Shown here piece by piece: positions 30,963 through 46,997 of a DNA stretch of 49,286 nt (positions are counted from its first letter, which is position 1; each line of letters opens with the position of its first letter). The notes under the pieces are model-generated. The model did no database searches and had not been told where the DNA came from. It saw nothing but the letters and a program-made list of their open reading frames with translations. The stretch is from Gloeobacterales cyanobacterium ES-bin-313 (GTDB taxonomy: Bacteria; Cyanobacteriota; Cyanobacteriia; Gloeobacterales; Gloeobacteraceae), in the NCBI GenBank assembly GCA_014379585.1, contig JACMLN010000015.1, positions 1-49,286 of the forward strand. The letters are read 5' to 3'. Both the position numbers and the translations under genes were made by a program.

Positions 30963-31112
30963 ATGTCTTCTAATAAGAACACTGAGATAAATGGTCAAGA
31001 CCGTAATGCCTTTATTTTTGGTCTTTCACCGCAAGCAGAGATATGGAATGGTCGATTGGCAATGATCGTGGCTACCTATGTTCTACTCCACAACGTGCTG
31101 CGGATAATCTAG
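30963..31112 (+). CDS. High-light-inducible protein (HLIP) 1
   Basis: 49 residues. A polar N terminus is followed by the chlorophyll-binding helix: FIFGLSPQAEIWNGRLAMIV has the family pattern ExxNGRxAM, in which the Glu and Asn coordinate chlorophyll a and the Arg pairs with Glu. One membrane helix only. HLIPs pair up around chlorophyll and carotenoid, dissipate excess energy and help photosystem II assembly. Copy 2 is at 43334 and a broken copy 3 at 44133. Gloeobacter-type cells lack thylakoids, so it acts in the cytoplasmic membrane. Confidence 0.92.
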   Translation: MSSNKNTEINGQDRNAFIFGLSPQAEIWNGRLAMIVATYVLLHNVLRII

Positions 31113-31553: not shown

Positions 31554-31742
31554 ATGAAATCACCCATTAAAGTGCAGATACCGGAACGCCTACTCATCTC
31601 TTCCGAGCAATTCTTTCTTAATATAACTGAACCCCTCGATCCACTCATAAGCCTCTCATTAACTGGCCTTATGAAACAACTTGTCAATATTGCTTATCTC
31701 ATGGGTCATGTAGATGGTAAGCAAACAGAACCTAGTGACTAG
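31554..31742 (+). CDS. Small unknown protein, copy A (KQLVNxAYLMGHxDG family)
   Basis: 62 residues; ATG 31554 has AGGAG six bases upstream. It ends inside the crtW gene, overlapping its start by 29 bases. The C-terminal half (LISLSLTGLMKQLVNIAYLM) is hydrophobic or amphipathic, followed by GHVDGK. It matches the minus-strand gene at 45161-45343 at 29 of 47 aligned residues, including KQLVN, AYLMGH and DG. I know no family name. Position suggests a helper of CrtW or of light/carotenoid proteins, and the overlap suggests the two are made together. Confidence 0.72.
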   Translation: MKSPIKVQIPERLLISSEQFFLNITEPLDPLISLSLTGLMKQLVNIAYLMGHVDGKQTEPSD

Positions 31743-32487
31743 AGTCTTTAATACAGCTCTTGCGCTAAGCAGCTCCTTATTGCTGATGTTACTCTGGTTG
31801 CTCAGCTTGGAATATTACCTGACGTTGAAGCTTTCTAATTGCCCGTATATTGTGATTGCTTTTGCAATTCTCTTGCGAACTTTCCTACATACGGGCTTAT
31901 TCGTGATTACTCATGATGCAATTCATGGGAGCGCTGCTCCTCAAAACAGACAAATAAATAACTGGCTAGGTACCCTGGCAATCGGTCTGTACGCTTTTTT
32001 GCCTTACGAGAAGCTAAGAAACCAACACTTCCTTCATCATAGATATCCAACGAGTTCGCGAGATCCTGATTATCATGAAGGATACAAGTCCAACTTTTTC
32101 ACCTGGTATCTATGCTTTATGCAGGCATACCTGAAAGGCAAGCAGGTACTTATTATTCTTGCTGGAGTTAGTGTAGTAAGTTTTATGGCTCTCAAATTGC
32201 TGGGTGTGCAACCGATCAATCTTTTACTCTTTTGGCTCATCCCGCTTGTTCTTAGCTCAATACAGCTATTTTACTTTGGCACTTACTTACCCCACAGATA
32301 TGCTGCTACTAGAGATAGAACGAAGCATTGTGCAACGAGTACTCAGCTATCAATGTTCTGGTCTCTAATCACTTGTTATCACTTCGGTTACCACTTGGAG
32401 CATCATTCATACCCCTCATTACCTTGGCACGCTTTACCAGGTTGCCGTAGAACCTTGTTTAAGCAGCATCTTGAAGTTGCCAGATAA
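31714..32487 (+). CDS. crtW: Beta-carotene ketolase, CrtW type
   Basis: 257 residues. It is a membrane-bound di-iron enzyme of the fatty-acid-desaturase/hydroxylase fold with all His boxes: HDAIHG, HFLHH, and YHFGYHLEHHSYPSLPWHALP, plus FGTYLPHR, which are signatures of CrtW. It adds keto groups at C4 and C4' of beta-carotene, giving echinenone and canthaxanthin. Those are the pigments needed by HCP/CTDH (15004-15986) and used as antenna by xanthorhodopsin-type pumps. The start at ATG 31714 overlaps the upstream small gene; GTG 31735 is the alternative. Confidence 0.92.
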   Translation: MVSKQNLVTRVFNTALALSSSLLLMLLWLLSLEYYLTLKLSNCPYIVIAFAILLRTFLHTGLFVITHDAIHGSAAPQNRQINNWLGTLAIGLYAFLPYEKLRNQHFLHHRYPTSSRDPDYHEGYKSNFFTWYLCFMQAYLKGKQVLIILAGVSVVSFMALKLLGVQPINLLLFWLIPLVLSSIQLFYFGTYLPHRYAATRDRTKHCATSTQLSMFWSLITCYHFGYHLEHHSYPSLPWHALPGCRRTLFKQHLEVAR

Positions 32488-35814: not shown

Positions 35815-36421
35815 CCCTGCTTTGTGGGACTACTGTAGATACTAACCCGGAACTAGAATGACTCTTCTACCAATTTCACCCTCGCACTGATCAATGGCCT
35901 AGCTGGGATTGCCGTGGGGTAGAAATGGGTGAGGTGTGGGTAAGGTTTTGGGACACTTGGCATCCATGGACGGGATCAGCCATCCACTACCTACTCACTA
36001 TCCCTAAAAGTTCCCCTCTCCTGCAAAGCAGGACGACGGACGGGCAGAACGTCCCGCTTTACAAACTTTTTTGGTGAGGTAGGGATAGGGCTTCCGGCAC
36101 CGTGCGCCGCTTCTTCTGAATACCCCGGTCTGTCAGACAGGCAGTTGGAGTAAGGTGTAGATGAGGCTCAGACATTGGTAGACTCGCAATGCGTCACCCA
36201 TGTTTATAGCTGTAAGATAGATGGGACAAGGGTTTCAGACCTCTAAAGCTCGGCTTATTGCGCCAGAACATGGGAAAGCTATGTAGTTGACATCTCACAC
36301 CAAGCATTCTTTTTGCATCACAACTTTGTAGCGCAACGCATCAGGTCTGGGATGCACGCTACAATTCGGCCTCATTAAGCCACTCAAGCATTGATGAATA
36401 TAGCAAGGAACTGGAATAGAG
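35815..36421. other. Gene-free stretch containing a dispersed repeat
   Basis: About 600 bases. The 84-base repeat at 35977-36060 (copy in opposite orientation at 45801-45884) is its main content. The rest shows no gene; the promoter of the histidine kinase at 36422 should be at the right end. Confidence 0.5.
35977..36060 (+). repeat. Dispersed repeat family 2, copy A
   Basis: 84 bases whose reverse complement matches 45801-45884 over the same length with no net gap. Shared core: AGTTCCCC, CTCCTGC, AGGAC, ACGGACGGGCAGA, TCCCGC. It contains the hairpin CCTGCAAAGCAGG. Both copies are intergenic. Confidence 0.8.
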
Positions 36422-43333: not shown

Positions 43334-43483
43334 ATGGCTTCCAACAAGAATGTTGAGATTAACGGTGAAGACCGTAACGCCTTCGTCTTTGGTCTGTCCC
43401 CCCAGGCTGAACTTTGGAATGGGCGATTGGCAATGCTAGTAGCAACTTACGTTCTTCTCAAAGACGTGCTGCACCTGTTCTAA
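43334..43483 (+). CDS. High-light-inducible protein (HLIP) 2
   Basis: 49 residues, same length as HLIP 1 and very similar: FVFGLSPQAELWNGRLAMLV, ending VLLKDVLHLF. The chlorophyll-binding ExxNGR motif is intact. The leader from about 43285 to the start (TGCTGAGAGAGTGTTC, then GAGGTTTCGTTAG) is repeated in front of the broken copy at 44133, so the unit was duplicated with its control region. Confidence 0.92.
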   Translation: MASNKNVEINGEDRNAFVFGLSPQAELWNGRLAMLVATYVLLKDVLHLF

Positions 43484-43819: not shown

Positions 43820-44062
43820 GTGGAACAGCACGCTGTCGGTGCGTTGTGCATGGAAGAAGGAAGATGGTGGTTAGAGATCATCACAAATGAACCGTATTTA
43901 TACCTATTCGGCCCATTCGATACGACTGATGAAGCCGACAATAAAAGTGACGAATACTTTCAAGACCTTGAAGCTGAAGGTTGGAAGATTGTTTCAAGCA
44001 AGATGACCCAATTAGGGGATGCCAGGAAGAGGCTATCTGCACCAGCACATTTAAGGCAATAG
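43820..44062 (+). CDS. DUF1816 protein
   Basis: 80 residues; GTG start with a purine-rich GGGAGAGAGG upstream, or an ATG ten codons in. The core (WWLEIITNEPYLYLFGPFDT) is the signature of DUF1816, a small cyanobacterial family of unknown function often found next to phycobilisome or high-light genes. It is followed by an acidic helix (DEADNKSDEYFQDLEAEGW). Here it sits between HLIP 2 and the HLIP pseudogene, which agrees with a light-stress role. Confidence 0.82.
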   Translation: MEQHAVGALCMEEGRWWLEIITNEPYLYLFGPFDTTDEADNKSDEYFQDLEAEGWKIVSSKMTQLGDARKRLSAPAHLRQ

Positions 44063-44132: not shown

Positions 44133-44282
44133 ATGAATTCCAACAAGAATGTCAAGATTAGCGCCGAAGACCCAAATGCTTTCGTCTTCGCTTTCCCCCC
44201 CAAACTAAACTTTAGAATGGACGGCTGGTGATCATGGTCGCTACCTAAGTCATTCTCAAAGACATGCTGCACCTGTTCTTAG
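44133..44282 (+). pseudogene. HLIP 3, decayed copy
   Basis: 150 bases, exactly the length of the intact HLIP genes, and still similar in DNA including the leader. The first 19 codons are intact in sense (NSNKNVKISAEDPNAFVFAF). A run of seven C then shifts the frame, and a TGA (44229-44231) stops it after 32 residues. The chlorophyll motif is out of frame. Compensating indels kept total length, so the loss appears recent. Confidence 0.85.
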
Positions 44283-44486: not shown

Positions 44487-45067
44487 ATGCTCGTAGTCTC
44501 TTTCACTCCTGACTTTGCATCTTTCGGTGCAATCTTTGCCCAAACTGATGTTACAAAGCCTTAGAAACATTAGGATCGTTGACCTCTGGCCAATTCAACT
44601 TGGTCTACAACGCATTCTCGTTCGCAATTGCAGCCATGTTTGCAGCGGCTCTGTTCTTCTTCAACGCCCAGAATCAAGTTGATCAACCTTATCGACTAGC
44701 CCTACTTGTTTCAGCGATCGTTGTCAGTATTGCTGGGTACCACTACTTTCGAATCTTCAATAGTTGGGATGCCGCCTACATCTTGAAGGATGGCACCTAT
44801 TCCCCAACTGGCGCACCATTTAATGATGCCTACCGCTATCTGGATTGGCTATTGACTGTGCCGTTGTTACTGGTTGAGGCTGTTGCCGTGTTGGCCTTGC
44901 CTTCGAAAGAGTCAAAGCCCTTACTGGATGTACTGGCGAAACCTGTGTTTGGTCTTCTTATCTTCGCGATTGCCCTTGTGAAAACAAAGGTTGATCTTGA
45001 AGGCAATGTCCCCCATGCCGCGAACGGTAAAACAGCAAACATGCTGGAAGGCACTCTTGCCTCCTAG
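44487..45067 (+). pseudogene. Gloeobacter-type rhodopsin with helices D-F deleted and a 5' frameshift
   Basis: From ATG 44487 the frame gives a rhodopsin-like leader (MLVVSFTPDFASFGAIFAQ) and stops at 44562. One G missing near 44558 explains this, because the next frame continues ALETLGSLTSGQFN. From TTG 44579 a 162-residue frame runs to 45067. Helices A-C are complete: His55 in GYHYFRIF, Asp89 in DWLLTVPLL (proton acceptor, GR Asp121) and Glu100 (donor, GR Glu132). After KESKPLL it jumps straight to helix G, DVLAKPVFG, with the retinal Lys121 (GR Lys257). Compared with Gloeobacter rhodopsin as I remember it, about 104 residues (149-252) are missing in frame. A direct repeat TACTGG borders the join. 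It was a light-driven proton pump. Confidence 0.88.
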
Positions 45068-45352: not shown

Positions 45353-46076
45353 CTGTTAGTTATCTTGATAGAGCGGCGTGCTTACATGGCAGGAGAGGCC
45401 GATTGCTGAAGACATGGACTCAGAGCTGTTCAAACAGACTCATTGTTTGAGAGTTAGACAAGAAAAGCGGCTGATACGAAGCAAGGGTTGCGAACTTCTG
45501 CCCACACAGAGAGCAAAGCTTGACAATTTAGATCTTGCGGATGAGTGACAGCACAAGCTTAACATTTTGTTACTTTATGATACTGCGTAGACCTAGGCAA
45601 TGGCTACCCCTTCTTCTCGCGCTCGACGCAATGGAGGTCTAAAGCATTGCTTCATCTACCTTTCAGGTAAAAACATTTGTGTCACGTAGTGAGTCTCAGC
45701 CTACCCCTTGCTCCCACTGCCTGTCTGCTTGAAGAACCACAGTTTTGAGAAGAAACCGCGCACTGTGGTGGAAATATACTGATTTCGTGTCAACACTAGT
45801 CACGCGGGATGGTCTGCCCGTCCGTTGTCCTACTGCGCAGGAGTGGGGAACTTCTAGGGAGGGGAAGTAGGGGGTAGATGGGTGAACAGAGAGATTGTCT
45901 GCTTGGCCACGATCAGCGAAATCGTTTCGGAATGTAAAAAAGGCTGGCACAGATTTGCCGCATACCACATACTGTTCAGAAATTTGATCCCCAGCACTTT
46001 CAATTGGTCATCCCAACATGTCAACTGATCTAAACAATCAGAGCATTCAAAGTCCTCTACCCAAATTCCCATAGAA
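45353..46076. other. Gene-free stretch with dispersed repeat
   Basis: About 720 bases. It holds repeat family 2 copy B (45801-45884). Short frames here have no family support. No RNA gene seen. Confidence 0.45.
45801..45884 (-). repeat. Dispersed repeat family 2, copy B
   Basis: Inverted relative to copy A (35977-36060), same 84-base length. Core reads, on the minus strand, AGTTCCCCACTCCTGC and ACGGACGGGCAGA. Intergenic. Confidence 0.8.
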
Positions 46077-46280: not shown

Positions 46281-46997
46281 TCACAGAGTCGGCAGCACCG
46301 GGAACACACTTGGGAGCACAGCGACAACGGCGGGTTCAGTGTTAGCGGTGGGCAGCATGCTATGGGGACTTTTGAAGTTCTCCTGGGCGTCTACCGACTG
46401 GCAGGCCACCATTGTCTTGACATGCTCACCCTCATCGTCGCGGATCGCAACGAAGACGTCGTAGAGGTTCTCAATCACAGGGCGGCGCCCCTCGGGCTTC
46501 CGGCTAGTCTGGAACTCGTCGAACATGTACAGGTCGCCGTTGCTGTAGTAGTTGAGTGCCACCGCTGGGGCGGACAGACTCTTGAGTTGCTCACCGTCGG
46601 ACTTGAGAAAGCCGTCGTAGGTATGGAAGGCATGCTCTTCGACCTGTTCCATAAAGGCGTAGGCCGAGCGTGGGGAGGCCAAGTACAGCACCACCACCAC
46701 CCAGTAGTAAATGAGCGCCGAGGTGCGGGCGAACAACCGGTCCCCCCAGTGGGCATTGCCCCCTAGCGACTCCATAATGAGCAGGTGGTGCAGTTCGTTC
46801 CAGGTCTCGGCGAAGTGGACTTTCAGCCAGTCGGCCTTGCGCCACAGACCCAGAGTCTCGTAGAGGTGTAGCACCGACAGGAACGAGAAGTACGGCACCC
46901 GGGCGACGGTTTCAAGCACGTAGAATCGGGGGTAGGTACGATTCTTGTAAAGAACGTCGATGAAAAAAACTAGAGTTTTCACAAGGAAGCGGATCAT
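46281..46997 (-). CDS. Plastoquinol terminal oxidase (alternative-oxidase family, PTOX-like)
   Basis: 238 residues. Di-iron ligands of the alternative oxidase family are all present: Glu29 in LETVARVPY, Glu68 and His71 in NELHHL, Glu119/120 in VEEHAFHTY, Glu189 and His192 in RDDEGEHVKTM. It is a monotopic membrane protein that oxidises plastoquinol and reduces oxygen to water without pumping protons, relieving over-reduction in the light. The tail (VVAVLPSVFPVLPTL) is not conserved. Start is ATG 46997 with GGGAG upstream. It fits the photoprotective surroundings. Confidence 0.92.
   Translation of the reverse strand: MIRFLVKTLVFFIDVLYKNRTYPRFYVLETVARVPYFSFLSVLHLYETLGLWRKADWLKVHFAETWNELHHLLIMESLGGNAHWGDRLFARTSALIYYWVVVVLYLASPRSAYAFMEQVEEHAFHTYDGFLKSDGEQLKSLSAPAVALNYYSNGDLYMFDEFQTSRKPEGRRPVIENLYDVFVAIRDDEGEHVKTMVACQSVDAQENFKSPHSMLPTANTEPAVVAVLPSVFPVLPTL

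Follow-up and report, generated by a model that had tools for sequence, protein, structure and literature searches.

The open reading frame at positions 44579-45067 (forward strand) of the window, by which we mean the whole 49,286-nucleotide stretch of Gloeobacterales cyanobacterium ES-bin-313 that was analysed, raises the question of whether a rhodopsin cut down to four helices is a short protein in use or the remains of a lost gene. Taken together, the evidence argues strongly that this locus is a fresh pseudogene, an orthologue of Gloeobacter rhodopsin (GR) that lost its activity recently. Compared with intact orthologues it carries two independent disabling lesions, a frameshift in the leader and an internal deletion of 104 codons.

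Identity and retained parts of the reading frame

The frame begins with TTG, is open for 162 codons and joins helices A-C to the inner part of helix G and the C-terminus. It matched the Bac_rhodopsin family (PF01036, profile positions 7-92, E 6.9e-16), and the genome (4.26 Mb, 198 contigs) contains no other rhodopsin match. Its best solved-structure match, far beyond chance, was GR (Gll0198; PDB 6nwd), to which it aligned in two separate stretches, residues 1-120 with GR 33-152 and residues 108-161 with GR 244-297. Over the 162 retained codons the remnant is 78% identical to GR (L007/L042 in genome G001), and over the same codons it is ~64-74% identical to xanthorhodopsin-type rhodopsins from Phormidesmis, Leptolyngbya, Chamaesiphon and others (L010-L022). 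As judged from sequence similarity, the frame is by descent an orthologue of the GR/xanthorhodopsin-type proton pump.

Alignment placed His55, Asp89, Glu100 and Lys121 exactly where the original prediction had them. Asp89 and Glu100 correspond to GR Asp121 and Glu132, the acceptor Asp and donor Glu of helix C, and the Schiff-base lysine is retained as Lys121 within DVLAKPVFG, equivalent to GR Lys257 (residue numbering of GR Lys257, Asp121 and Glu132 from PMC4210194). Four hydrophobic peaks were observed in the 162-residue frame, at residues 12-30, 42-60, 91-109 and 116-134. The predicted in-frame A-B-C-G arrangement was borne out, without a change of frame at the join; helices A-C are kept as proposed, but of helix G the outer part (GR ...GVQVGYTIA) has been lost. 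Functional type 1 rhodopsins have seven transmembrane helices that enclose retinal, with helices D-F forming walls of the retinal pocket; the present frame codes for no more than A, B, C and inner G.

The 312-nt deletion and its breakpoints

Alignment to the GR gene of G001 showed that precisely 104 codons (312 nt) are missing, equivalent to GR residues 149-252; the flanks meet at 44926|44927 on the forward strand. That the loss is in frame is put down to chance, at a probability of one in three. GR and eight other homologues served as proxies for the ancestral sequence. Against them, the two breakpoints have 0-1 nt of homology in register, and no common word longer than 8 nt occurs within 40 nt on either side of them in these nine homologues. 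This absence of homology argues against slippage or recombination at the TACTGG repeats, the origin that had first been suggested for the deletion. That mechanism was rejected, as the first TACTGG copy straddles the join and so arose through the deletion.

The same result bears on the reading that the GR gene is whole in the organism and has been misrepresented, at one or both lesions, in the draft contig. Both lesions are witnessed by one draft assembly only (198 contigs), and a loss of a multiple of three in an otherwise perfect frame, with none of 70 invariant codons changed, is a possible appearance of an error in a live gene. However, the breakpoints offer no repeat that could have been collapsed during assembly, the missing 312 nt, encoding helices D-F, were found on no other contig of the assembly, and two separate lesions would both need to be errors. 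Furthermore, the adjoining hli-type gene has also decayed, by point substitutions, and long open reading frames elsewhere in the window (300-1220 codons) remain open. We consider an error of assembly or sequencing unlikely.

The inherited start and the leader frameshift

The start of the gene had been placed at 44579. Translation and alignment locate the inherited ATG at 44487 instead, out of frame with the remnant: the leader (44487-44564, forward strand) reads MLVVSFTPDFASFGAIFAQTDVTKP, 25 codons followed by TAG, and aligns with the GR leader MLMTVFSSAPELALLGSTFAQVD. The segment directly upstream of this ATG is also conserved relative to the GR locus. The frame of helix A continues after the frameshift as ALETLGSLTSGQFNL. 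Frame comparison and alignment placed the frameshift site within 44555-44570 (forward strand), near 44559-44565 with the exact base uncertain, as a net +2 nt relative to GR or -1 nt relative to homologues with one more residue there. In close full-length relatives, the leader runs into helix A in one uninterrupted frame. Because of the frameshift, the 162-codon frame has no inherited start and opens on a chance TTG, where most homologues have a leucine codon; its next in-frame ATG, at 44636, falls within helix A. The view that the rest of the gene is well kept, with no stop, therefore holds downstream of 44579 and fails upstream, where the leader ends in TAG and no translatable frame extends from the inherited start. 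Programmed -1 frameshifting in the leader was rejected, as a script check found no slippery heptamer (X-XXY-YYZ) in the leader frame.

A use for a residual four-helix product, the second possibility raised in the original prediction, would call for reinitiation at TTG 44579 once the short leader has been translated, yielding an A-B-C-G protein with a role, for instance as a membrane or retinal-binding remnant. Coupled reinitiation is conceivable, given an AGGA just upstream of the TTG and the position of the TTG 14 nt past the leader stop, but this start is not an inherited one. The frame is open, with four hydrophobic segments, and keeps all residues invariant among homologues, as would also be expected under selection; recency, however, accounts for this conservation, and no selection beyond that expected from a recent loss was seen. 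The architecture itself was found nowhere else, neither at 30 related loci nor in 386 cyanobacterial genomes. The walls that helices D-F would provide to the retinal pocket are absent, and an argument from established rhodopsin structure predicts that the shortened helix G, coming directly behind helix C, would enter the membrane upside down, with lysines on either side of it. A used product of this kind is very improbable, and its most specific form, a selected, membrane-inserted remnant with helix G inverted that is made by TTG reinitiation, is slightly more so.

Constraint and age of the remnant

The dN/dS of the remaining helices against GR, a calculation proposed with the original prediction, was ~0.12 (NG86) or 0.23 (YN00), indicating that constraint acted on the gene during most of the time since it separated from GR. 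None of the 70 codons invariant among homologues has changed in the remnant, which bounds any neutral phase at less than ~0.02 substitutions per site (95%) and makes any decay recent; the lack of stops gives a much weaker bound (<0.19). Polarised amino-acid changes numbered 10 on the remnant branch against 5 on the GR branch, and such small numbers do not distinguish the two. The conservation of the remnant fits recency and does not separate a fresh pseudogene from a selected remnant. It is the lost start and the dead neighbouring gene that favour the pseudogene over a selected remnant.

The dead hli-type gene and the surrounding region

Between a DUF1816 gene (43820-44059) and the rhodopsin remnant lies a small gene at 44133-44281 (forward strand), which we take to be of the hli (high-light-inducible) type on the basis of its NGRLAM motif. 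Pfam gives this assignment weak backing, through a below-cut-off chlorophyll a/b-binding match of the copy at 30963. Sequence comparison and protein search identified an intact copy at 43334-43483 (forward strand), and a second intact copy is present in the window at 30963-31112. The copy next to the rhodopsin is dead: one nucleotide is deleted, TAG replaces a Trp codon and TAA a Tyr codon, and the original stop has been lost. Independently, a protein search recovers it in two fragments, 44133-44207 and 44177-44278, and the second of these is interrupted by one TAG and one TAA. Decay by substitutions together with an indel is unlike sequencing error.

G001 has an intact counterpart of this gene ~0.3 kb upstream of GR, encoding a 49-residue protein with the NGRLAM motif (L042 10726-10872, minus strand). 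The GR and remnant loci share the conserved upstream segment, the upstream hli-type gene, and the acceptor, donor and retinal-attachment residues. They differ in that the remnant has the leader frameshift, lacks helices D, E, F and outer G, and adjoins a dead hli-type copy. The GR gene has been described as "localized alone" (PMC4210194), and in light of this its hli-type neighbour may be worth attention.

Other features of the window were also recorded. A ~196-bp stretch without a recognised gene occurs at 45690-45885 and 35976-36170 and matches 11 places in the genome at 71-85% identity, some of them partial; it is possibly a small mobile element. An alternative oxidase family protein (46284-46997, minus strand; PF01786, E 4e-34) is encoded ~1.2 kb downstream of the remnant. 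Positions 31714-32484 encode a beta-carotene ketolase resembling CrtW (NF045690, E 1.3e-80, short of that model's cut-off); co-expression of GR with canthaxanthin, a ketocarotenoid, has been reported (PMC9151804). No Rfam elements were found in the window.

Distribution among relatives

All related loci (30 of 30) read through the deleted region to helix G, with 247-270 residues between the start of the match and the stop codon. The search for the same deletion in other genomes, suggested at the outset, returned none: it was not found among related loci on the contigs of other genomes, and the only join-spanning hit in one piece among 386 cyanobacterial genomes was that of the window itself. 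Unlike the remnant, the xanthorhodopsin-type rhodopsins L010-L022 are all full length, extending through helix G. The viral contigs searched contained no relative of the remnant, and no direct precedent was seen among the papers listed for truncated or pseudogenised cyanobacterial rhodopsins.

Within the same family, G001, the nearest GR-bearing genome, has both GR and its hli-type partner intact; we infer that it is Gloeobacter violaceus from its 298-residue rhodopsin, which reads as GR. G002 carries a different rhodopsin (L068, G002:C383:2849-3493), an open frame 31% identical to GR. In G003, G004 and G005, neither a rhodopsin nor a rhodopsin remnant was detectable, so its lack is common in the family. 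Two RPE65-type oxygenase matches are present in each of the six Gloeobacteraceae genomes (6 of 6), with or without rhodopsin. Retinal-making genes were therefore rejected as evidence of use, being uninformative on this point.

Probable recent loss of a rhodopsin in Gloeobacteraceae

The reading as a fresh deletion allele gained from the second disabling lesion, in the leader, and from the decayed neighbouring gene. In the proposed course of inactivation, a small indel in the leader cuts the frame of the inherited ATG short at 25 codons, a deletion without microhomology removed helices D-F and outer helix G, and the segment, in which the hli-type neighbour decayed too, has probably lost its selective value. 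The lesions, the decay of the neighbour, the lack of helices D-F elsewhere in the genome and the intact gene pair of G001 are direct observations, whereas loss of function, the order of the lesions and relaxed selection as their cause are what we infer from them. Ordinary bacterial indel pseudogenes likewise combine a frameshift with an internal deletion, a decayed neighbour and a recent age. The sole departure here is the coincidental length of the large deletion, a multiple of three, through which the remnant comes to resemble a designed short protein.

A working four-helix rhodopsin, if true, would overturn the requirements for a retinal protein, and the evidence points against it. An in-frame deletion can disguise a dead gene as a new short protein, and annotations of short rhodopsins should be checked for upstream lesions. 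As a pseudogene, the locus provides a snapshot of rhodopsin loss in the Gloeobacteraceae, a family in which rhodopsin is intact in one genome, freshly broken here, and undetectable in three that have kept their carotenoid-cleaving oxygenases.
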